Assembly: GCA_017853555.1 (NCBI GenBank)
Contig: JAFMJH010000001.1
Span: 1-64,000 of the forward strand
Direction: 5' to 3'
From: Steroidobacteraceae bacterium
GTDB lineage: Bacteria; Pseudomonadota; Gammaproteobacteria; Steroidobacterales; Steroidobacteraceae
DNA length: 64,000 bases
Shown: positions 5,833-63,941 of the stretch, piece after piece
Layout: every line of letters starts with the position of its first letter
Position numbering within the stretch: the stretch's first letter is position 1
The notes under the pieces: generated by a model
What the model was told of the DNA's origin: nothing
What the model saw: only the letters and a program-made list of their open reading frames with translations
Databases searched by the model: none
Translations under genes and position numbers: made by a program

Positions 5833-8363
5833 GTTCTCTTTTTCACTCCGCGTACGGGCTCGGCTTCGAGGGGATTCTCGGGCCAATGATGCCGAGGATA
5901 ACGGCCCCGCATGTCCTTGCGTACTTCGACGTAGGCGTTGCGCCAAAAACTCGCCAGGTCGGCGGTGACTTGCAGCGGGCGTTGGGCGGGCGACAGCAAC
6001 TGGAACGTGACCGGCAACTTGCCGAGCGCCAGACGCGGAGTCGCGGCGAGACCGAAGACTTCCTGCATCCGCATCGACGCGGACGGCGCAAGATCACCCT
6101 GATAATCGATGCGCACGCGCGAGCCCGTGGGCAAGCCGAGATGACTCGGCAACCATTCGTCCAGCTTGCGTACGCCGGCATGACCGAGACGGTGCTGCAG
6201 CATCTCGAGCAGAGGGAGTTTGGCGAGATGGCTGCGTCGCGTGACGCCCGACAACCACGGTGCCAGCCAGGCTTCGCGATCGACGAGCAAGGCGTCCGCG
6301 GCAAACGCGGGCCAGGATGCGACGTCGTGCAATTCCAGACGACGGGCCAACTCGACCCGCGCACAAAAACTGCGACAGACCTCGTCCCAAGGCAAGCAGT
6401 CGAGACCCATCTCGGCGATGCCGTCCAGCATCGCCTGTAATGCATGCTCGGGATCGATCTGCGTGAGCGGTCGTTCGTCGATGATGAGCGCGTCGAGCTT
6501 GACCAGGCGGCGCATCACCACGCATTGCTCGCGCGTGGACCACGCGACTTCGTCGACGGTTTGCAGGCGCGCGCCCGCGGCCTGTTCGAGCATCGGGCGA
6601 TCGATCGCGGCCGCCAGTTGAATCCGCGCTTCGCGATCACGATCGTCGAGATCCACGGCGACAAGGTACTCCGCGGACGCCAGACGATCGGTGCGTGCAA
6701 AGTGGGCGCCACGCCCGTTCGCGAGCAGGAATCGACCGTCACTGCCGGCCCGACGTTTGCCGATGCGATCGGGATAGGCGCAGGCGAGCAAGCCTGCGGC
6801 ATCGAGCATCGCGGCCGTCTGCGGTGCGCTCGCGTCCATCCGTCGCTCGTATTGTTTGGCAGCCTCGCGGATGCGCGACCAGGCGCCACGATCGACTTCG
6901 CCGCCCGCGAATCGCGAATCGAGCAAGTCGAGACGGGTCGTGACGTCGAGATCGGTCACGTCGCCCGCTCGCCCGCGCAGCAGATCACGTTCGCTGAGCA
7001 GCGCGGCGAGTTTTGCGCCGAGCGACAAGACGCCGCGTCGTTGCGCCTCGATCAACAGATGCGCGAGTCGCGGATGCATCGGCAAATGCGCGAGCGCTCG
7101 ACCATGGGCCGTGATACGCCCGGCAGCATCAAGGGCACCGAGTCGACTCAGCAGGTCGCGCGCACCATCGAGCGTGGCCGGCGGTGGCGTGTCCAACCAC
7201 GGCATCACGCTCGCCTCGGTCGTTCCCCACTCGGCAAGATCAAGGGCGAGCGGCGCGAGATCCGCTTCCAGAATCTCGGCGCGCGCAAATGCCGCAAGAC
7301 TGCGCTGCGCGCCCTCGCTCCAGAGTCGATAGCAGCGTCCTGCGGCGACGCGACCCGCGCGACCGGCGCGCTGATCGGCCGAGGCGCGTGAGATGCGCTG
7401 CGTTTCAAGTCGACTCATGCCCGATACCGGATCGAACACCGATCGACGTACAAGCCCCGCATCGACCACCACGCGTATGCCGGGCAGCGTGACGCTGGTC
7501 TCGGCGATGTTGGTCGACAGGATGACGCGACGCGGGCTCTTCGGATCAAAGGCGAGTGCAACTTCTTGCGCAGCCGGATCGAGATCGCCGTACAAAGGAA
7601 ACGTCAGCACGCCTTGCTGCAAAACTTCGGGCGCGGCGCCGAGCATGTCGCGGACGCGGCGTATCTCGGCCGCGCCCGGCAAAAACACGAGCACGTCGCC
7701 TTCGGTTTCGCGCAAGGCGCGACGCGTCGTGCTCGTCACTGCGCGCTCGAGGTCACCGCCGCCCGGCAAGAGCGGCAAGCCGGAGCCGACGTACTCGATC
7801 GTCACCGGGAACGCGCGCCCTTGTGACGTGACGATCGGCGTGTGCTCGCCGAGCAATGCGGCGACGGCAACGCCATCGAGCGTCGCCGACATCACGAGCA
7901 GACGCAAATCGCTGTCCAAGGTGCGACGCGCATCGAGACACAGCGCGAGACCGAGATCCGCCTGCAAGCTGCGTTCGTGAAACTCGTCGAACAACACCGC
8001 CGCGACATCCTCGAGCGTCGGATCGGTTTGCAGCATGCGCGTCAATACGCCCTCGGTGATCACTTCGATGCGCGTCGCGCGACTGACGCGCGTGTCGAGG
8101 CGCATGCGATAGCCCACCGTCGCGCCGACGCTCTCGCCCAAGGTCGCGGCCATGCGCTGCGCCACGCCACGCGCCGCGACGCGTCGCGGCTCGAGCATCA
8201 AAATTTTTCGACCCCGCACCCAGGGTTCGTCCAGCAACGCGAGCGGCACGACCGTGCTCTTGCCCGCACCCGGTGGCGCCTGCAACACCGCCGCGGACGC
8301 GGACGCGAGTGCGCCGCGCAAGGCGGGCAACGCTTCGGTGATGGGCAGTTCGGGCAGGCGCAT
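5829..8363 (-). CDS. hrpB: ATP-dependent RNA helicase HrpB
   Basis: An 844-residue DEAH-type helicase. It has Walker A PPGAGKST at residues 30-37, the Walker B box DEFHERS, SATLDG (motif III) and DQRAGRAGR (motif VI), followed by the helicase-associated region and the HrpB C-terminal domain. The order and total length match HrpB of Gammaproteobacteria; the related HrpA is much longer. HrpB is a conserved helicase of uncertain physiological role, probably in RNA metabolism. The chosen ATG lies about 50 bases from the divergent hydrolase start; the ORF track extends through the intergenic region without support. Its stop overlaps the start of the SDR gene. Confidence 0.96.
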   Translation of the reverse strand: MRLPELPITEALPALRGALASASAAVLQAPPGAGKSTVVPLALLDEPWVRGRKILMLEPRRVAARGVAQRMAATLGESVGATVGYRMRLDTRVSRATRIEVITEGVLTRMLQTDPTLEDVAAVLFDEFHERSLQADLGLALCLDARRTLDSDLRLLVMSATLDGVAVAALLGEHTPIVTSQGRAFPVTIEYVGSGLPLLPGGGDLERAVTSTTRRALRETEGDVLVFLPGAAEIRRVRDMLGAAPEVLQQGVLTFPLYGDLDPAAQEVALAFDPKSPRRVILSTNIAETSVTLPGIRVVVDAGLVRRSVFDPVSGMSRLETQRISRASADQRAGRAGRVAAGRCYRLWSEGAQRSLAAFARAEILEADLAPLALDLAEWGTTEASVMPWLDTPPPATLDGARDLLSRLGALDAAGRITAHGRALAHLPMHPRLAHLLIEAQRRGVLSLGAKLAALLSERDLLRGRAGDVTDLDVTTRLDLLDSRFAGGEVDRGAWSRIREAAKQYERRMDASAPQTAAMLDAAGLLACAYPDRIGKRRAGSDGRFLLANGRGAHFARTDRLASAEYLVAVDLDDRDREARIQLAAAIDRPMLEQAAGARLQTVDEVAWSTREQCVVMRRLVKLDALIIDERPLTQIDPEHALQAMLDGIAEMGLDCLPWDEVCRSFCARVELARRLELHDVASWPAFAADALLVDREAWLAPWLSGVTRRSHLAKLPLLEMLQHRLGHAGVRKLDEWLPSHLGLPTGSRVRIDYQGDLAPSASMRMQEVFGLAATPRLALGKLPVTFQLLSPAQRPLQVTADLASFWRNAYVEVRKDMRGRYPRHHWPENPLEAEPVRGVKKRT

Positions 8364-8378
8364 TCGAGATCCAGGGCG

Positions 8379-8407
8379 TTGCAAGTTCGTGGCGGATTGT
8401 ATGCAAT
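8379..8407 (+). promoter_or_regulatory. Candidate sigma70 promoter for the alpha/beta hydrolase
   Basis: TTGCAA and TGCAAT are separated by exactly 17 bases, each matching the sigma70 consensus at four of six positions. The -10 element ends seven bases before the ATG at 8415, so transcription would start at the initiation codon. The -10 region is inside a short inverted repeat, ATTG-TATG-CAAT. Confidence 0.45.
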
Positions 8408-8414
8408 CACGATC

Positions 8415-9365
8415 ATGAAGTTCCTGCGACGTTTGGTACTGGGATTGCTCGCGTCGATCGCGCTCTTGTGGCTTGCGCTCACGGCGTGGGCCTACTGGCC
8501 GGGCGAGCCTGAAATACCGGTCTCGAAGCTCGCGACCGCCGACGACCGCTTCATCGTCGTGAACGGGACCCGCCTGCGCTATCGCGAGTGGGGCGAGTCC
8601 GCCCCGGGGCGCCCGGACCTGCTCCTGCTGCACGGCTTCGGAAATTCCCTGCAGAGCTTTCGCGAGCTCGCGCCACGATTGGCGCCCCACGCCCACGTCA
8701 TCGCCATCGACATGGCGGGCTACGGACTGTCGGACAAACCCGTCGCGTTCGATTACCACAACGGCCCGCAGGCCAAACTCCTGATCGCGGCCGCGCATCA
8801 ACTCGGCCTGCGGCACGTGGTGTACGTCGGGCATTCATTGGGCGGTGCCGTGGCATTGCAAGCTGCCGTATACGACACGGACGCCGGCGGCTTGGTGCTG
8901 CTCAACCCCGGCATCATCAGTACCGGCGTTCCGAAAGTCGTGCAGGTCACGCTGCCGCCGTTGCCCCGCCTGTCGGCGAAATTGTTCGGCAGCCGGGAAT
9001 TCAGAAGTGATTTTTTGAAGAAGTCTTACGTCGATCCGCAGCTCGTCACGCCTGCGGTGATCGACGAGGTGATGCTCGGAGCACGTGCGGAAGGTTACAT
9101 GGCCGGCATGACGTCATTGATGCAGCAATATTCCGAAGGCGAAGAAGTGCGACTTGCCGCACGAGTGAAAGTCCCCACGCTGATTCCGTGGGGCAACGAA
9201 GATCGAAACAAGCCGCGCTCCGAAGCCGACGCCTTGCAGCAACTGATTGCCGGTTCGAAGTTGGTGCGTTTCGACGGCGCGGGGCATTACGTCCACGAAG
9301 AAGCGGCGGCGGGTGTTGCCGCCGCGATCACCGATTGGCTCAGCGAGGTCGACCCCGCCCGTTGA
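8415..9365 (+). CDS. Membrane-anchored or exported alpha/beta hydrolase
   Basis: A 316-residue alpha/beta-fold hydrolase. An N-terminal hydrophobic segment, about residues 7-27 after MKFLRRLV, anchors it to or carries it across the inner membrane. The catalytic pieces are clear: LLHGFG (oxyanion region), nucleophile elbow GHSLGG near residue 140, an aspartate region in PWGNEDRN, and His in GAGHYVHEE. It is likely an esterase/lipase-type enzyme, but substrate specificity cannot be assigned. It stands alone between divergent hrpB and convergent ygiQ, whose end overlaps this gene by 26 bases. The ORF track continues upstream through hrpB; the ATG given follows a promoter-like sequence. Confidence 0.9.
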
Positions 9366-32545: not shown

Positions 32546-32573
32546 AGTTTACCGAACGACGGGCGACTGACTA
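32546..32573 (-). promoter_or_regulatory. Candidate sigma70 promoter of the ten-gene kinase/VWA operon
   Basis: On the reverse strand TAGTCA and TAAACT are separated by 16 bases; each matches sigma70 consensus at four of six positions. The predicted start lies about 50 bases before the TTG of the first lipoprotein gene. The -35 element overlaps the stop codon of the upstream MFS gene. No obvious operator palindrome is present. Confidence 0.4.
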
Positions 32574-33827
32574 GTCGCTTTTGGCCGGATCCGGGAATCG
32601 ATCGAGGCGCCGCAGTTCGGGGAAGACACGCAAATAGGTTGCCACGACCAGTAGACAGGCCACCCCACCGACCGTGACGGCCGCGACCGGCCCCCACCAA
32701 CGGGCCGTGACCCCCGATTCGAATTCGCCGAGCTCGTTGGACGTGCCGATGAACATGGAGCTGACGGCGCTCACGCGACCGCGAATCGCATCGGGTGTCT
32801 CGAGCTGCACCAGCAAGTGGCGCACGAATACGCTCACCATGTCGCCGGTTCCGATCGCGAACAGAGCCAGCGCCGACAGCCAAAAACTCGTGGATTGCCC
32901 GAACACCACGGTCGCGGCGCCGAACACGGCCACACCGCCGAACATCCAGGTCCCGGCGTGGCGCGTGATGGGGCGGTACGCGAGCCACACGGCAACGAGT
33001 GCAGCGCCGACGCCGGGTGCGCTGCGCAACACACCGAGTCCGACCGGGCCCACGTGCAGGATGTCCGCTGCGAAAACGGGCAGCAACGCGGTCGCACCGC
33101 CGAACAGCACCGCGAACAAATCGAGCGAGATCGCGCCCAGCACAGGTTTGCGACGCAAGACGAAACGCAAGCCTTCGAAAAATTCCGTCAAGGTCGCCTC
33201 GCTGCGACCTTTGGCACGCACCGGACGAATGCTCCAGATCAGAAGCGTGACGATCGCCAACAACGCGAGCGCGACGGCATAGACGAGCAGCGCGCCGGAA
33301 TGACCGATCACCGTTTCGCCAAAAGCGTACAACACGCCACCGACGGCGGGGCCCGCGATGGCGGCGCTTTGAAACAAGGTGCTGTTCAACGCGACCGCCG
33401 AGCCGAACACCTCGGGCGGCACCAGGTTGACGGTCATCGCCTGACCGCAGGGCATCCAGAACGCCCGTCCCGCGCCGAACAACGCCATGGCCACGAACAC
33501 GGGCCAAATATCGCGACCGCCGGAGAGCGTGAAAGCCAGCAACACGAAAACGCAGCACGCCTCGACCAGATACGCGCCGACCATCACCAGACGACGATCC
33601 GCGCGATCCGCGACATGCCCACCGGGCATCACCAAAACGAGGAACGGCAGGAATTGCGCGAGACCGATCAGACCAAGGTCGAGCGGGTCGCCGGTGATCG
33701 CATACACCTGCCAGCCCACCGCAACGCCCAGCATCTGCCACGCGATGGTCGCGCAGAAGCGCGCGAGCGCGTAACGACGGAAGTCCTTGATCGCCAAAGC
33801 GGCACGAATGCCGGAAGAAACTGCCAA
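32571..33827 (-). CDS. MFS exporter (DHA3/EntS-like)
   Basis: A 418-residue, 12-helix major facilitator transporter. The family signatures are GGHVADRADRRLVM between helices 2 and 3 and the loop text QLETPDAIRGRVSAVSSMF, both typical of the MFS_3 group that includes the enterobactin exporter EntS and multidrug pumps. The TTG start gives MAVSSGIRAALAIKDFRRY, the usual N-terminus of the group; no ATG is available nearby, and the track's start adds 21 residues without a ribosome site. It precedes the lipoprotein/kinase operon on the same strand; the gap of 86 bases contains a candidate promoter for that operon. Confidence 0.85.
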   Translation of the reverse strand: MAVSSGIRAALAIKDFRRYALARFCATIAWQMLGVAVGWQVYAITGDPLDLGLIGLAQFLPFLVLVMPGGHVADRADRRLVMVGAYLVEACCVFVLLAFTLSGGRDIWPVFVAMALFGAGRAFWMPCGQAMTVNLVPPEVFGSAVALNSTLFQSAAIAGPAVGGVLYAFGETVIGHSGALLVYAVALALLAIVTLLIWSIRPVRAKGRSEATLTEFFEGLRFVLRRKPVLGAISLDLFAVLFGGATALLPVFAADILHVGPVGLGVLRSAPGVGAALVAVWLAYRPITRHAGTWMFGGVAVFGAATVVFGQSTSFWLSALALFAIGTGDMVSVFVRHLLVQLETPDAIRGRVSAVSSMFIGTSNELGEFESGVTARWWGPVAAVTVGGVACLLVVATYLRVFPELRRLDRFPDPAKSD

Positions 33828-33998
33828 AGGACCGCCCCGATCGTGTACCCGAAGAGTCTCATCAGAACACCCGCCACACCGCCCTCGCAAGTTTCATCAC
33901 CCGCCGACCCGCTGGTCGGCCGCAGACCCGTGCAGCCGTGCTTGGCAACCCCGCCCGGGTGTTAACGTGCCGCATCGCCGCGCATGAGGAAGTCCGCG

Positions 33999-35702
33999 AT
34001 GTCCACCGATCAGATCACTCGACACTTTGCCACCATCGAGTCCGGACGCTGGGGAGCACGACAAGTGCACTATCGTCGTGTCGGCTCGGGCCCCGTCGTG
34101 ATCTGCTTTCACCAATCACCCTTGAGCTCGCGCGACATGCTCGCGACCATGGAGCGCTGGAAGTCGCACTTCACCTGCATCGCACCGGATTCACCGGGTT
34201 TCGGTTTGTCGGACCCGCTCGGCGTCGCGAACGCGGAGATGCGCGACTTCGCCGACGCGGCGATCGAATTCATGGACGCGATCGGCGTCGAACGAGCTGC
34301 GGTCTACGGCTTCCACACCGGCGCGATGATTTCGGCTGCGGTTGCCGCGGCATATCCCGAACGTATCGTGTGCGCGGCCGCCAATGGCTACGTGATGCTC
34401 AATGAAGACGAGCGCGCCGACATCGTCGCGCATTATCTGCCCGAACTGAAGCCGAGCTGGGACGGCGCTCATCTGACGTGGTTGTGGGCGCGCATGCGCG
34501 AGCAATTGATTTTCTTTCCGTGGTATCGCAAATCGCTCGCCGATCGCATGTATTTCGATTTGCCGCCACCCGATGCGCTGCACGCCGGCTTGCTCGATTT
34601 CATGCGCTCGGGCGATCACTACCGCGTCGGCTATCGCGCCGCCTTCACCATGCGCTCGGACCTCGCGTTGCGCGAAACCAAAGTGCCGATACTCGTCACC
34701 GCCGCGGCGACCGACGTGCTCGCGAACCAGTTGCCGCGCATCCGTCGGGCGGCTTCCTGCGTGACGGTGCAAATCGGTGGCGACACTCAGGACACGCTCG
34801 ATCTGTGCCGCGACTACATCAAGCGTCACAAACCACCCAAAGCGCCTCGCATCGCCCCGACCAAACCCTTGCCCGGAAAACTTTGGAGCGATTACGTCAC
34901 GCTGCCCAAAGGCCAGTTGCGCGTACGTCGCAACGACGATGCGCAAGGCCGGCCCGTCATCGTGCAGCACGATGCGGCAGGATCGTCCGAAACCGTGCTC
35001 GCACTGGCCAGCGGCTTCATCGGCAAACGACCGGTCATCGCCATCAACCTGCCCGGCCACGGCGAATCCGACAACGTGATGCCGCGCGGCAAAGTCACGG
35101 TGACCGCGTACGCGAAATCCCTCGATGCCGCGCTCGGCGCAATGGGCATCAAAGAGGCCGACTTCATCGGCGTATGGGGTGGCGGACTCGTCGGTCTCGA
35201 GCTCGCGAGCATCGCGCCGCGACGCATCCGTCAACTCGTCATGGCCGACGTGCTGTATCACGACGAGACGCTGCGCCAACAATTGCGCAAGCACTACACT
35301 CCCGACATTCGTCCGAACTGGTATGGCGGACATCTGCTCGAAGCCTGGTACCTGATGCGCGACCAGGGTCTCTTCTGGCCATGGTATGAACAAAATCGCA
35401 AAGGCGCGCTGCGCAAAGAACCGCACGTGGATCCGGTGATGATCCAGCAACGGGTGTTCGAATTGTTCCGCTCGGAAGGGATGTGGCGTCACGCGTATCA
35501 AGCGCACTTCAGCTACCCGCTCGCGCGGCGACTTTCGCAAAGCAAAGTGCCGCTCATGTTCGCGGCGCCGCTCTGGGATCCTCAGTACGAAGCCTCGCAA
35601 GCCGCAGCGCGCGATTTCCCCCGCGCACCGTTCGTCGAGCTGCCCGACGAACCATCGCGCTGGGCACGCACGCTGCTCCCTCTTTTGAACGGAGAACGCT
35701 GA
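33999..35702 (+). CDS. Tandem alpha/beta-hydrolase-fold protein lacking serine nucleophiles
   Basis: A 567-residue protein built from two alpha/beta-hydrolase units (about 1-290 and 300-567). Unit one has VVICFHQSPLSS and the elbow YGFHTGAM, with His where the nucleophile Ser is expected; unit two has INLPGHGESD and an elbow VWGGGLVG with neither Ser, Cys nor Asp. Both carry similar cap helices with FFPWYRK and FWPWYEQ. The start at 33999 has GAGGAAG seven bases upstream; the track's start is 15 bases earlier. It is cytoplasmic (no signal). Catalysis, if any, would be non-canonical; lyase, decarboxylase-like or cofactor-free oxygenase roles exist in this superfamily. Three bases from the MBL gene. 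Confidence 0.82.
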   Translation: MSTDQITRHFATIESGRWGARQVHYRRVGSGPVVICFHQSPLSSRDMLATMERWKSHFTCIAPDSPGFGLSDPLGVANAEMRDFADAAIEFMDAIGVERAAVYGFHTGAMISAAVAAAYPERIVCAAANGYVMLNEDERADIVAHYLPELKPSWDGAHLTWLWARMREQLIFFPWYRKSLADRMYFDLPPPDALHAGLLDFMRSGDHYRVGYRAAFTMRSDLALRETKVPILVTAAATDVLANQLPRIRRAASCVTVQIGGDTQDTLDLCRDYIKRHKPPKAPRIAPTKPLPGKLWSDYVTLPKGQLRVRRNDDAQGRPVIVQHDAAGSSETVLALASGFIGKRPVIAINLPGHGESDNVMPRGKVTVTAYAKSLDAALGAMGIKEADFIGVWGGGLVGLELASIAPRRIRQLVMADVLYHDETLRQQLRKHYTPDIRPNWYGGHLLEAWYLMRDQGLFWPWYEQNRKGALRKEPHVDPVMIQQRVFELFRSEGMWRHAYQAHFSYPLARRLSQSKVPLMFAAPLWDPQYEASQAAARDFPRAPFVELPDEPSRWARTLLPLLNGER

Positions 35703-35704
35703 TC

Positions 35705-36601
35705 ATGTCGTGGACTTCACTGCGCAAGACGATCGTGCCAGTTCTCACCCTCGTCGCGCTCGCGTCGCCGACCTTCGCAACGGCGCAAACGGCACTGCCG
35801 CCACAGATCGAAGGACACGAACTCACGCAGATCGGCCCGGGTTACTACACGTTCCGCAACAAGGGACTGCGCAACGTCTTTCTCGTCACCAGCGCCGGCG
35901 TCATCGCCACCGATCCGATCGAACCCGAAACGGCACGCCTGATGCGCGAAGAGATTCGCAAGATCACGCCGCTGCCGGTCAAATACGTGGTCTACAGCCA
36001 TCAGCATTGGGATCACGTGCGTGGCGGCCGCATCTTCAAAGACGAGGGCGCGATCTTCGTCTCGCACGAAAACTGCGTGCCCCACTTTCGCGACCTGCCC
36101 GACCCCGAGATCGTCATGCCCGACCAGACCTTTTCGGGCGATCGATATTTCTTGAAGCTCGGCGAGCGCACGCTGAAGCTGCGGTATCTCGGCACGAATC
36201 ACGGCGACTGCCTCATCGTCATGACGCCGGACCACGTCAACGTGCCGTTCATCGTCGACCTCGCCACGGCGGGAGGCATGCCCTTGCCGTTCATCGCCGA
36301 TTATTCACTGCACAACTGGGTGCGCAGCCTGCGCGAACTCGAAAGCTGGGACTTCGAGCAATACGTCGGTGGTCACGGCGTTGCACTCGCGCCAAAGAAT
36401 CGAATCGCCGAACGACGCGAATACATCGAAGCACTGCTCATCGAAACCAAACGCGAACTCGATGCCGGTACGCCGCTCGCGAACATTCCCGACGCCGTCG
36501 CGGCGCGCCTGCAAGGTCGCTTCGCGCACCTGCGCGGCTTCAACGGCATCGTGCGCGACAACGTACGCCGCACGATCACCTATTACGGGATGGGCTGGTG
36601 A
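35705..36601 (+). CDS. Exported metallo-beta-lactamase-fold hydrolase
   Basis: A 298-residue protein with a Sec signal (VLTLVALASPTFATAQ). The metal motif YSHQHWDHVRGG near residue 100 is the HxHxDH box that binds two zinc or iron ions. A further ligand region is LGTNHGDCLIVMTP, and GGHGV near residue 222 supplies a late histidine. Substrates in this fold range from beta-lactams to lactones and thioesters; the sequence does not decide. It is two bases after the tandem hydrolase gene and overlaps the LOG gene by four bases (GTGA), so the three are probably one transcript. Confidence 0.88.
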   Translation: MSWTSLRKTIVPVLTLVALASPTFATAQTALPPQIEGHELTQIGPGYYTFRNKGLRNVFLVTSAGVIATDPIEPETARLMREEIRKITPLPVKYVVYSHQHWDHVRGGRIFKDEGAIFVSHENCVPHFRDLPDPEIVMPDQTFSGDRYFLKLGERTLKLRYLGTNHGDCLIVMTPDHVNVPFIVDLATAGGMPLPFIADYSLHNWVRSLRELESWDFEQYVGGHGVALAPKNRIAERREYIEALLIETKRELDAGTPLANIPDAVAARLQGRFAHLRGFNGIVRDNVRRTITYYGMGW

Positions 36602-39923: not shown

Positions 39924-40805
39924 TCAGTCTTTCGACCAGGCCACGATGGACGCGGCGACGGCTGCCGGATCTTCGTGGTGCATCATGTGACCGAGCCCGG
40001 CGAGCGTGACGAGCGTCGTTGCCGGAAAAGCGCTCGCCAACGAAGCGGCATCACCATCGGCCTGCAAGCGCTGCAGATATTCCGACTCCGCAGCCAGCAC
40101 CAGCAAGGCAGGCGCCGTCACTCGACGCCAGCACGCCTCGGCTTCTTCGCGCCGATACAGCGTGGGGTTGACCAGACGGTGCCAGGGATCAAAACGCAAC
40201 TCCACCGCACCGTCGTCGCCATCGCGCGTCCAGGCACGCGCGATGAAGCTCGCCCGCTCGGACGTCAGACGCGCATTGCGTTGCCGCAACTTGCCCGCCA
40301 GCGCTTCGACCGATGCGTAGCGGCCTTCGCGCGGCGCGAGGCGCAATTGCTGCAACCATTCGGCATAGCGTTGCGGCGCTTGCGTGGCGGGGGTGCGTCG
40401 CAGCCCGAAGCCCTCGAGCGAAATCAGCCGCTCGACGCGCTCGGGGCGGATACCGGCGTACATGCTCACCACGTTGCCGCCCAGGCTGTGCCCGAGCAGA
40501 CGCACCGGTTGTGCCGGCTCGAGCAACTCGAGCAGCGCATCGAGATCGGCAAAGTAATCGGGGAACCAGTAGGGCTGCGCCATACCTTCGCTCGCGCCGA
40601 AGCCGCGCAAGTCGGGCGCGATGAAGCGCCAATCGCGCGGCAACGCGTCGACCAGAAACTGGAAGGTGGCCGCGCAGTCTTGAAAGCCGTGCAGCAAAAA
40701 CCACGTTTGCGCCGCATCGTGCTCGGGACCCCAGTGCAAGACGTGCTGGCGCAGGCCGCGCAGCGTCACGAACGTCGAACGCGGCGTTACCTCGGCGCGA
40801 TACAT
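39924..40805 (-). CDS. Alpha/beta hydrolase
   Basis: A 293-residue cytoplasmic alpha/beta-hydrolase with an intact triad: LLHGFQD, PDLRGFGASEG, nucleophile elbow LLGHSLGGN near residue 106, and the terminal His in LAGLGHMMHHEDP. The cap region is helical with many Arg and Trp. It probably acts on small esters, epoxides or C-C bonds, which the sequence cannot decide. The ATG overlaps the ilvA stop by one base (TGATG), so it is co-transcribed with ilvA; the track's longer form lies within ilvA. Confidence 0.9.
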   Translation of the reverse strand: MYRAEVTPRSTFVTLRGLRQHVLHWGPEHDAAQTWFLLHGFQDCAATFQFLVDALPRDWRFIAPDLRGFGASEGMAQPYWFPDYFADLDALLELLEPAQPVRLLGHSLGGNVVSMYAGIRPERVERLISLEGFGLRRTPATQAPQRYAEWLQQLRLAPREGRYASVEALAGKLRQRNARLTSERASFIARAWTRDGDDGAVELRFDPWHRLVNPTLYRREEAEACWRRVTAPALLVLAAESEYLQRLQADGDAASLASAFPATTLVTLAGLGHMMHHEDPAAVAASIVAWSKD

Positions 40806-42328
40806 CAGGTACCGAGAAACATCCGGTAGGCGGGATTGTTCGTCTCGTCGGTCCACGGATACTGGAGTTCGGTCAAATGCGCCGAAAACGCCGCGTGACT
40901 TGCGGCCGGCACCTGGATGCCGACGAGCACGCGACCGTAATCCGAGCCGTGATTGCGGTAGTGGAACAACGAGATGTTCCAACGGCCGCCGACGGCCTCT
41001 AGAAAGCGCGCCAATGCACCCGGTCGTTCCGGAAACTCGAAACGCAACAGCAATTCGTCACTCAAGCCTCGCGCATGACCACCGACCATGTAACGCACGT
41101 GCAGTTTCGACAACTCGTTGTCGGTCATGTCGACGACCGGGTAGCCCGCGGTACGCAAGGCGGAAATCACCGCCTCGCGATCGGCCACGCCGTCGTTGAG
41201 CGCAAAGCCCACGAAAATCCGCGCCACGGTGCCGGCCTCGTAGCGGTAATTGAATTCGGTGACGGCTCGGCGTCCGAGCACGCTGCAAAAACGCAGGAAG
41301 CTGCCCGGCTGTTCCGGAATCTCGACGGCCAGCAACGCCTCGCGGTGTGCGCCGATCTCGGCGCGCTCGGCCACGTGCCGCAAGCGATCGAAATTCATGT
41401 TCGCGCCGCAGTTGATGGCGACGAATCGACGTCCGCTGCACGCTTCACGCGCCACGTATTTTTTGATCGCGGCCACGGCGAGTGCGCCCGCCGGCTCGAC
41501 GATCGAACGCGTGTCTTCGAAGATATCCTGGATGCCGGCGCACATCTCGTCCGTCGTCACGAGCATCATTTCGTCGACGCAGGTGCTCGCGATCCGGAAA
41601 GTCTCTTCGCCGACGCGACGCACGGCGACACCATCGGCGAACATCCCGACCCGATCGAGCGCGACGCGATGGCCTTTCTGCAACGAATCGTGCATCGCCG
41701 TCGAGTCGGCGGCATTCACGCCGATGATGCGGATCTGCGGATGCAGATATTTGAGGTAGACCGCGATGCCGGCGATCAAGCCGCCGCCGCCCACCGGCAC
41801 GAAGACCGCATCCACGTCGCCTTTGGTTTGTTGAGCGATTTCCAGACCGATGGTGCCTTGGCCCGCGATCACGTCCGGATCGTCGAAAGGATGCACGAAC
41901 ACCAGGTTGCGCTCGCCGGCGAGTCGCGTGGCGTACTCGAACGCGCTGTCGTAGTCGTCGCCGTGCAGAATCGCTTCGCCGCCGAGATCGATGACCGCTT
42001 TAACTTTGATGCGCGGCGTCGTTTGCGGCATGACGATCACCGCCGGGATGCCGCGACGCCCCGCCGCGAGCGCAACGCCTTGCGCGTGATTGCCGGCCGA
42101 CGCGCAAATCACGCCGCGCGCGGCTGCTTCATCGGACAGATTCGCGATCTTGTTGTACGCGCCACGGAGTTTGAACGAGAACACCGGCTGCAGGTCTTCG
42201 CGCTTGAGCAACACCGTGTTGCCCAAGCGGCGCGACAGGCGCCGCGCTTCTTCGAGCGGCGACTCGATCGCCACGTCGTGCACGCGCGCGCGCAGGATCC
42301 GTTCGATGTATTGCGGTGGCGCCATCAT
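40805..42328 (-). CDS. ilvA: Threonine dehydratase, biosynthetic type
   Basis: A 507-residue protein, the length of biosynthetic IlvA. The PLP domain contains KLRGAYNK with the Schiff-base lysine in FSFKLRG near residue 53, ASAGNHAQG near 82 and the phosphate loop VGGGGLIAG near 180. Two C-terminal ACT-like regions (from about 325 and 425; IPEQPGSFLRF and FPERPGALARF) bind isoleucine or valine. It deaminates threonine to 2-oxobutanoate, the first step of isoleucine synthesis. Two adjacent ATGs (42328, 42325) are possible. It lies between a small unknown gene and an alpha/beta hydrolase. No attenuator-like leader is seen in the 22-base gap upstream. Confidence 0.95.
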   Translation of the reverse strand: MMAPPQYIERILRARVHDVAIESPLEEARRLSRRLGNTVLLKREDLQPVFSFKLRGAYNKIANLSDEAAARGVICASAGNHAQGVALAAGRRGIPAVIVMPQTTPRIKVKAVIDLGGEAILHGDDYDSAFEYATRLAGERNLVFVHPFDDPDVIAGQGTIGLEIAQQTKGDVDAVFVPVGGGGLIAGIAVYLKYLHPQIRIIGVNAADSTAMHDSLQKGHRVALDRVGMFADGVAVRRVGEETFRIASTCVDEMMLVTTDEMCAGIQDIFEDTRSIVEPAGALAVAAIKKYVAREACSGRRFVAINCGANMNFDRLRHVAERAEIGAHREALLAVEIPEQPGSFLRFCSVLGRRAVTEFNYRYEAGTVARIFVGFALNDGVADREAVISALRTAGYPVVDMTDNELSKLHVRYMVGGHARGLSDELLLRFEFPERPGALARFLEAVGGRWNISLFHYRNHGSDYGRVLVGIQVPAASHAAFSAHLTELQYPWTDETNNPAYRMFLGT

Positions 42329-61593: not shown

Positions 61594-63090
61594 ATGACCG
61601 CCGCCGACCTCTCGACTGCCACTCTGGATTTTCTGCGCCGCAAGCACGGCCACTTCATCGCCGGGCGCTGGGTGCCCTCGGCTTCGGGACGCAGTTTCGA
61701 TGTGCACGATCCGGCCACGGGACTGACGATCGCGAGCTGCGCGGCGGGCGATGCACACGACATCGATCTTGCCGTGAAAGCGGCGCGCGCCGCGCTCGAA
61801 GGTCCGTGGAGCAAGTTCACGGCGGCGCAACGCAGCGCGATCTTGTGGAAGATCGCCGACCTCGTGCAAGCGAACTTCCAGCAGCTCTGCGAGCTTGAAA
61901 TCCTCGATAACGGTTTGCCCACGCCGCTCGCACAATACGTCTGCGGCATGGTGGTGCCGGAATTCTTCCGTTACTACGCGGGCTGGCCGACCAAAATCGA
62001 AGGCGCGACGATTCCGGCTGCGCCGCAGGGCAAACCGCCCGGCGAAGTTTTCTCGTTCACGTTGCGCGAACCGATCGGCGTGGTCGGTGCGATCACGCCG
62101 TGGAATTCACCCTTGCCGATGGTGATGCTGAAGATCGCGCCCGCCCTCGCCACCGGTTGCACCCTGGTATTGAAGCCCGCCGAACTCACGCCGCTCACGG
62201 CGATGCGCCTCGCCGAACTTTGCCAGGACGCGGGCGTGCCCGACGGCGTGATCAACATCGTCAACGGTTACGGCGCGGATGCCGGCGCTGCGCTCGCGGC
62301 GCATCCGGGTGTCGACAAGATCGCCTTCACGGGCTCGACCGAAGTCGGCAAAGCGATCGTGAAAGCTTCGGTTGGCAACTTGAAGAAAGTCACGCTGGAA
62401 CTCGGTGGCAAATCACCCGTGGTCGTTTTCCCGGATGCCGATCTCGAGCAGGTGATTCCGGGGGCTGCACGTGCCTGCTTTTTCCTGCAGGGGCAAAACT
62501 GCATGGCCGGCACGCGTTTGTTCGTGCACGAAAAAATCCACGACCAGGTGGTCGAGGGGATTGCACAAATCGCCCAGGCGATGAAGATCGGCCCCGGCCT
62601 CGATCCGACGTCCGAATTCGGACCGCTCATTTCCGCCAAGCAACGCGATCGCGTCACGAGCTTCGTCGAAGCCGGGCAGCGCGAAGGCGGCGAGCTCGTC
62701 TGCGGCGGACGCGCCCCGACGCGCCCCGGCTACTTCTTCGAGCCCACGATTTTGACGCGCATGACAAGCGACATGACGCCGGTGAAGAACGAAATCTTTG
62801 GCCCGGTGTTGTGCGTACAGACCTTCGGTGACGGCGATCTCGATGTGGTCGCACGCGAAGCGAACTCGACCATCTACGGTTTGTCGGGCAGCGTCTGGAC
62901 CCGCGATCTCGGCACGGCGATGCAGATGGTGCGCAAGATCGATTCGGGTCAAGTCAGCGTCAACATGCATGCCGCGATCGATCCCGCGATGCCCTTCGGG
63001 GGCAACAAGCAGTCCGGTTGGGGTCGCGAATTCGGCAAGGACGGGCTCGAGCCCTATCTCAAAACAAAAGGGATCTCGATGACGTGGTGA
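61594..63090 (+). CDS. NAD(P)-dependent aldehyde dehydrogenase
   Basis: A 498-residue ALDH. It contains ITPWNSPLPMVMLKIAPAL, KPAELTPL, FTGSTEVGK, the catalytic glutamate in LELGGKSP near 265 and catalytic cysteine in GQNCMAGT near 299, and FGGNKQSGWGREFG near the end. The enzyme oxidises aldehydes to acids. GAGGAG precedes the ATG with good spacing. The stop overlaps the GTG of the hydrolase gene. Neighbours suggest a catabolic role for an imported compound. Confidence 0.94.
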   Translation: MTAADLSTATLDFLRRKHGHFIAGRWVPSASGRSFDVHDPATGLTIASCAAGDAHDIDLAVKAARAALEGPWSKFTAAQRSAILWKIADLVQANFQQLCELEILDNGLPTPLAQYVCGMVVPEFFRYYAGWPTKIEGATIPAAPQGKPPGEVFSFTLREPIGVVGAITPWNSPLPMVMLKIAPALATGCTLVLKPAELTPLTAMRLAELCQDAGVPDGVINIVNGYGADAGAALAAHPGVDKIAFTGSTEVGKAIVKASVGNLKKVTLELGGKSPVVVFPDADLEQVIPGAARACFFLQGQNCMAGTRLFVHEKIHDQVVEGIAQIAQAMKIGPGLDPTSEFGPLISAKQRDRVTSFVEAGQREGGELVCGGRAPTRPGYFFEPTILTRMTSDMTPVKNEIFGPVLCVQTFGDGDLDVVAREANSTIYGLSGSVWTRDLGTAMQMVRKIDSGQVSVNMHAAIDPAMPFGGNKQSGWGREFGKDGLEPYLKTKGISMTW

Positions 63091-63941
63091 GCCTCGAACA
63101 CATCCGCTGCGGCTACGTCGACGGCGCACACGGCCAGGTCCATTATCGCGAGCTCGGCACCGGTACGCCGCTCGTGCTGTTGCACTGGGCACCTTCGAAC
63201 GGCCGGCAGTACGAACATTTGATGCCGCTCTTCGCCGCACGCGGATTTCGCGTGCTGGCGGTGGACATTCCGGGTTACGGCAATTCGCACAAACACACCG
63301 CTGGCTGGAGCTGCGCGGAAATGGGCGCTGAGCTCGCGATCGCTTTGCACAGGCTCGGCGGCGTATCGCGCGGATTTCTTTGTGGCGGACATCTGTCGGC
63401 GGCGGTCGTGGCCGAAATGGCGATCGCGGAGCCTGCGCGCTGGCCGCGCATCGTGCTCGACGGTTCGCCCACGCTGACGCGCGCGCAGTTCGCGACCCTG
63501 ATGGCGAGCTTTGCGGATCTATCGCCCAAATGGTCCGAAGATGGCGCGCACGAGCGTTTCGCTTGGCGCATGACCGAACGCTTTCTGCACGAATGGAATC
63601 CGGACTACCGCGCCACGCCGGAGAACTTCGCCGTGCAATACGCCTACATGGCGGACTATCTGCAAATGGGCTTTGCGCCGATTCGTGCGTTCATCGAACC
63701 GGGCTCGGGCAAACCGGGCGGGCTCGCCACCTATGACGCGCTCGGACGTTGGCCGCTGATCGCATCGAAGGTGCTGGCGCTGACTGCCGAGAGAGAAGCG
63801 TTGCGAGTCGGACACGAAGCGGCGCTCGCGCGACTGCAGCATCACGTCGCGCACGAATTCAAAGGCGCGCATCCGCTGTTGATCCCGGAGCGCGCGACGG
63901 AATACGTCGCGACGATCGCCGACTTTTTGTCAGCCCCCTGA
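63087..63941 (+). CDS. Alpha/beta-hydrolase-fold protein with atypical nucleophile elbow
   Basis: A 284-residue protein. LVLLHWAPSNGRQYEHLMP and VDIPGYGNSHKH follow the fold, but the elbow reads CGGHLSAAVV, with His in the position usually held by the nucleophile Ser. This is similar to the first unit of the tandem protein at 34 kb. The start is a GTG overlapping the ALDH stop (GTGA), so the pair is co-transcribed. A GTG three bases earlier cannot be excluded. The end overlaps a possible convergent gene. Confidence 0.83.
   Translation: MSLEHIRCGYVDGAHGQVHYRELGTGTPLVLLHWAPSNGRQYEHLMPLFAARGFRVLAVDIPGYGNSHKHTAGWSCAEMGAELAIALHRLGGVSRGFLCGGHLSAAVVAEMAIAEPARWPRIVLDGSPTLTRAQFATLMASFADLSPKWSEDGAHERFAWRMTERFLHEWNPDYRATPENFAVQYAYMADYLQMGFAPIRAFIEPGSGKPGGLATYDALGRWPLIASKVLALTAEREALRVGHEAALARLQHHVAHEFKGAHPLLIPERATEYVATIADFLSAP

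Follow-up and report, generated by a model that had tools for sequence, protein, structure and literature searches.

A tandem alpha/beta hydrolase-fold protein with histidine at one nucleophile elbow and a variable residue at the other

The locus and the tandem protein

The window (the whole stretch of 64,000 nucleotides that was analyzed) carries an intact open reading frame at 33999..35702 on the + strand, which encodes P0001, a protein of 567 aa with two alpha/beta hydrolase units; an alternative in-frame ATG at 33984 gives 572 aa. A divergent MFS transporter gene (EntS-like, with TIGR00900 and EntS models matched below cut-off) is located upstream at 32571..33890 (-). The stop of the tandem gene is followed 2 bases later by a gene at 35705..36601 (+), its start codon checked, for a hydrolase of the metallo-beta-lactamase fold (Lactamase_B) that carries a putative signal sequence at its N terminus. 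A second protein relevant to this study, the single-domain P0002, is encoded at 63087..63941 (+). Ordinary alpha/beta hydrolase domains at 39924-40982 (-) and 7827-9362 (+) have intact GHSLGG elbows and can serve as internal controls within the window.

P0001 was recognized as a tandem alpha/beta hydrolase-fold protein from its reading frame, Pfam, an AlphaFold model and its orthologues. The Pfam match was to Abhydrolase_1 (PF00561), at 76 bits (cut-off 25.8) and in two stretches, and the two units align with each other at 28% identity over 217 aa (E 9e-20). The model, for which 22 aligned sequences were the input, had a mean pLDDT of 91.5 and a pTM of 0.90, and was matched by Foldseek to solved hydrolases. 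Pfam, the model and Foldseek place the fold in the alpha/beta hydrolase superfamily, with the elbow between strand 5 and its helix. The model implies that both units are complete alpha/beta hydrolase units and, because the pTM is high, that they are packed in a defined arrangement. Unit 1 (residues 1-285; 33999..34853, +) was classed as catalytic-type by conservation and tree placement, and unit 2 (residues 290-567; 34866..35699, +) as a pseudo-domain by conservation, elbow variability and the tree.

The original prediction described a tandem hydrolase without Ser, Asp or Cys at either elbow, and both the alignment and the model agree with this. In unit 1, strand 100-105 is followed by the turn residue His106 and helix 107-118 (motif YGFHTGA), and the His106 codon (CAC; 34314..34316, +) was assigned from the model and the orthologue alignment. 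In unit 2 the model places Trp393 (TGG; 35175..35177, +) at the nucleophile-elbow position, between strand 387-392 and helix 394-405 and within GVWGGG. Neither unit has the Ser, Cys or Asp of a catalytic hydrolase at this position, and His106 also stands where epoxide hydrolases and haloalkane dehalogenases have their Asp nucleophile. The catalytic His of the strand-8 loop was likewise absent from both units. Strand 255-259 of unit 1 leads through a three-residue loop, Gly260-Gly261-Asp262 (34776..34784, +; model and sequence), directly into helix 263-276, the sequence there being QIGGDTQ, and unit 2 reads PDEPSRW at the corresponding place. The acid after strand 7 was present in both units, as Asp239 (GAC; 34713..34715, +; from the alignment) and Asp527. 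His38 of unit 1 is the ordinary His of the HG motif.

A nucleophile at a shifted position, which the original prediction had named as a finding that would speak against it, was sought across the alignment of the His-elbow clade (described below). No invariant Ser, Cys or Tyr was found except S71, which belongs to the canonical D-x-x-G-x-G-x-S motif, and T107 is itself replaced, by S in four domains and by L in proteins of the 63087 type. At the sequence level this alignment gives no support to a shifted nucleophile in unit 1.

Conservation of the two units and of their neighborhood

The orthologue set comprised 29 proteins including the query, the others being 54-72% identical to it over the whole protein. 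Most of them are from MAGs of gammaproteobacteria, Nevskiaceae and Steroidobacteraceae, with 13 in genome contigs and more in family genomes. One 56% orthologue is on a contig titled as a Klebsiella pneumoniae MAG (L017, CAMAQZ010000035.1) but has a Steroidobacteraceae-type gene order, and this is probably a mislabelled bin.

His106 was invariant in 29/29 orthologues (query included), and the unit 1 elbow always read YG[FY]HTGA. The elbow position of unit 2 was W, G, E, R or Q in the same proteins, with one M-W variant. Mean identity to the query was 71% for unit 1 and 54% for unit 2, the faster evolving of the two, and 87/285 residues were invariant in unit 1 compared with 30/282 in unit 2. 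Because its elbow is free to vary, it evolves faster and it holds fewer invariant residues, unit 2 is best called a degenerate pseudo-domain that has probably lost its active site. The proposal that its VWGGGL elbow lacks Ser, Asp or Cys is correct, but the nucleophile position there is Trp393, which, unlike His106, is not conserved; with W, G, E, R or Q at that position, a deviation common to both units was ruled out. Decay of an ordinary serine hydrolase suits the freely varying elbow of unit 2 but is scarcely credible as an account of the whole protein, and it is already refuted for unit 1, which is the slower evolving unit and whose His is invariant over a wide clade. Since His106 is invariant across 29 orthologues at 71% mean unit 1 identity, the residue is, as judged from these sequences, not a product of chance or random decay.

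In about 26 of the 29 distinct orthologue loci the MFS gene was the direct upstream neighbor, on the opposite strand, and one of the three exceptions was cut by a contig end. In the loci of genus g14 (L039, L040, L041, L046 and L049) the MFS gene was present and the downstream metallo-beta-lactamase-fold and LOG genes were not found. Because these loci keep the MFS gene without the downstream neighbors, its link with the tandem gene exceeds general gene order. The tandem gene of the sphingomonad clusters also adjoins MFS genes. The metallo-beta-lactamase-fold gene was downstream in only a subset of orthologue loci; it was less informative than the MFS gene and was set aside as a functional clue.

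The wider His-elbow clade

Relatives of unit 1 from the same genome, from family genomes and from plasmids have in common a G-x-H-T-G-A elbow, an H-x-S/T/A-P loop and a strand-7 acid. As markers of the clade, an elbow His followed by T/S, the H-x-[S/T/A]-P loop, the strand-7 acid and a lid G-x-[H/Q/Y] were used, and unit 1 belongs to the clade by alignment and by tree. Elbow residues were tabulated for 92 sampled single or N-terminal domains (82 His, 9 Ala and 1 Ser); as the sample was collected with a His-elbow profile, the His frequency describes the clade and not hydrolases at large. The lone Ser-elbow domain is a distant canonical hydrolase. Position 239 was D or E in 82/82 His-elbow domains. 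Lid position 158 was H in 53/82 and Q or Y in most others. Most His-elbow domains, unit 1 among them, were without the usual strand-8 His.

The nine Ala domains form one sub-clade (L002 at C9:6663-8177, L004 at C6:23986-24735, L120, L121, L123, L125, L128, L132 and L134), with elbows GNATGA, GAATGA or GTATGA; the tandem C units there have E, Y or D. At the aligned position 239 the sub-clade had K five times and S twice, with two domains unaligned and no acid, although the rows with K have an Asp two residues on and the alignment there is uncertain. On the tree the joint loss of His and Asp is a single event.

In a tree of 136 domains, N units clustered with single-domain proteins and tandem C units fell together, apart from these, with ten different residues at their elbows. 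The basal split was weak (50%), and the two large C-unit groups had 99% support each. These sequences would be explained most simply by an old fusion, or two, after which the C unit decayed. Two further tandems differ from the P0001 type. One open frame in the same genome (L082/L083, C9:18593-20260) has two His elbows (VMGYHTGS and VLGYHTGA) and is apparently an independent fusion. The tandem of an Azospirillum lipoferum plasmid (L056, 9551-11209) has GTHTGA in its C-terminal unit and a degenerate N-terminal unit, the reverse of P0001, and also looks like an independent fusion.

The original prediction attributed the same His change to the protein at 63087, and this was borne out by the model and the tree. 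The elbow of P0002 has His102 (63390-63392) between strand 97-101 and helix 103-114 (mean pLDDT 77), and the protein falls in the same clade as unit 1. It retains a strand-8-loop His, His262 (GAHPL; 63870-63872), and its strand-7 acid is E instead of Asp. The elbow His of unit 1 and P0002 was most plausibly inherited from a common ancestor in a single clade and not acquired in parallel. The further claim that a shared deviation marks a real subfamily and not decay holds for unit 1 and P0002 and fails for unit 2, where the elbow varies. Between 60031 and 63941 of the window, P0002 is grouped with a FAD_binding_2 flavoprotein and a phenylacetaldehyde-dehydrogenase-like enzyme. Identity of the flavoprotein to its counterparts in His-elbow clusters on pJE1 and on two Novosphingobium plasmids is 41-45%, and the aldehyde dehydrogenase matches one adjoining a Shinella clade member at 46% identity.

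The 2.5-Mb genome holds at least 16 matches to the His-elbow profile at E < 1e-30. In a phylum sample, 2 of 150 genomes, among them the present one, had a match of any kind; in a family sample at least 103 of 200 genomes had one, where counts are lower bounds as at most 12 candidates were scored per genome. Plasmid hosts of the clade were Sphingomonadaceae, Burkholderiales, Azospirillum, Rhodobacterales and Actinomycetota. By these counts the clade is expanded in the genus of this genome. The branch is large, widespread and constrained and apparently uncharacterised.

Genes beside clade members encode acyl-CoA dehydrogenases, adenylate-forming enzymes, amidohydrolases, aldehyde dehydrogenases, flavin reductases, FAD_binding_2 flavoproteins, luciferase-like monooxygenases and transport proteins. 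These neighborhoods are catabolic and argue for an enzyme. On the Novosphingobium plasmids and pJE1 (L053, L058, L059 and L052), a conserved cluster carries single-domain GSHTGA and tandem ATHTSA proteins together with MFS, flavoprotein and CoA-metabolism genes.

Candidate chemistry and alternative explanations

P0001 shares with PF00561 enzymes of the epoxide hydrolase, haloalkane dehalogenase and meta-cleavage-product hydrolase type the fold, the cap position, the D-x-x-G-x-G-x-S motif, the HxxP loop after strand 3 and the acid after strand 7. It differs from them in having His or Trp at the elbow rather than Ser, Asp or Cys, in the absence of a strand-8 His from unit 1, and in being a tandem with one pseudo-unit. 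The single-domain G-x-H-T-G-A proteins (Novosphingobium, Variovorax, Comamonas, Azospirillum, and Rhodococcus and Streptomyces plasmids) have the clade, elbow, loop and strand-7 acid in common with it, and differ in being single-domain or in other fusions (L082 and the Azospirillum tandem). NCBIfam gave P0001 only matches below cut-off and no family name. A close solved relative was sought by profile and by fold and none was found; the names of the listed matches are those of canonical enzymes, and elbow residues were checked for some of the solved-structure matches. A 2024 classification of elbows covers Ser, Cys, Asp and nucleophile-free cases and has no His elbow (PMC11878206), and a search of open-licence papers for the elbow motif and for missing nucleophiles returned no paper on such proteins, which is weak evidence. 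ZenA lactonases were also checked and have a Ser-His-Asp triad.

Two groups of enzymes with altered active sites were compared with unit 1. The cofactor-independent dioxygenases HOD, QDO and AqdC can do without the nucleophile and use a His-Asp pair as base (PMC10548524); they have Ser or Ala at the elbow, and the base is the His of the ordinary triad, located after strand 8. Unit 1 is without that His and has its own on the elbow itself. The methylketone synthase MKS1 lacks the canonical triad and keeps its His base (PMC10548524). MKS1 and the hydroxynitrile lyases carry out non-hydrolytic chemistry on this fold, as is proposed here for unit 1, but they are plant enzymes and an elbow His is not reported for them in the literature examined.

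Unit 1 has neither the elbow Ser nor the strand-8 His, which excludes the ordinary acyl-serine route there, and no acyl-enzyme would form on a Ser. His106 takes the place of the nucleophile and would, with Asp239, most likely serve as a general acid/base. The reaction would be non-covalent, such as C-C or C-heteroatom lysis, decarboxylation, hydration or oxygenation, and the substrate may be a small natural compound that is being broken down and is transported by the divergent MFS protein. Unit 2 would be a catalytically dead copy, kept as the rigid partner of a pseudo-dimer. We infer that unit 1 is an enzyme, that His106 pairs with Asp239, that the reaction is of one of these types and that unit 2 has a scaffold role. 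Taken as a whole, an active, serine-free unit 1 with the elbow His as general base, perhaps together with Asp239, and with unit 2 as scaffold is given an even chance of being right. Of the two possibilities that the original prediction had named, different chemistry is favored over a binding role because the His is strict, the strand-7 Asp or Glu is kept and the neighborhoods are catabolic. Asp527, the equivalent of Asp239 in unit 2, was near-invariant in the orthologues although the C units have no His. Because C units keep the Asp in this way, the acid is probably in part structural, and its conservation does not prove a dyad. The Ala sub-clade is a counterpoint to a His mechanism, as it shows that the fold can do without the His.

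A sensing or binding pseudoenzyme, in which both units would be non-catalytic and His106 would be a ligand contact in a pocket for a small molecule, is possible but rather unlikely. Hydrolase-fold receptors bind a small molecule in this pocket. The joint loss of Ser and strand-8 His fits such a role, as does the persistence of the Ala sub-clade, and the EntS-like MFS neighbor could export the bound substrate. P0001 has no attached DNA-binding or signalling domain, however, its relatives are found in catabolic clusters beside enzymes, and elbow His and strand-7 acid are retained jointly in all 82 His-elbow domains.

Covalent catalysis, with His106 itself replacing Ser as the nucleophile through an acyl-, alkyl- or phospho-imidazole intermediate, is considered still less probable. 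In its favor, the strand-turn-helix elbow has a His at the nucleophile position, and some members, P0002 and L006 among them, keep a strand-8-loop His that could activate it. Against this, unit 1 and most members are without a second His as base, and His is not among the elbow residues of the published classification (PMC11878206). A metal-dependent enzyme, in which the elbow His would hold a catalytic metal together with further residues of the pocket, is very improbable. In principle the ligands could be His106, Asp239 and His158 of the lid, but the lid His is replaced by Q or Y in most of the remaining third or so of domains, His38 belongs to the HG motif, and no further invariant ligand candidate was found.

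To return to the elbow His as general base, a wider proposal is made tentatively and is held to be less likely right than wrong: that a bacterial branch moved its catalytic His from the strand-8 loop to the elbow, giving an elbow-His/strand-7-Asp dyad that would perform general-base chemistry without a Ser-type nucleophile, and that in a large lineage of tandems one such unit was kept while the other became a pseudo-domain. Overall, the sequences point to a real, constrained variant of a known fold that is new, with a putative function and probably with different chemistry.

One of the largest superfamilies of enzymes is defined by its elbow nucleophile. His-elbow proteins are filed as plain 'alpha/beta hydrolase', yet they cannot act as ordinary serine hydrolases. 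Because relatives occur in cultured Novosphingobium, Azospirillum and Variovorax, the question can be put to the test. An elbow His that acts as the catalytic base would be a new catalytic solution on this fold; if it does not act so, many annotations of catabolic genes would be misleading.
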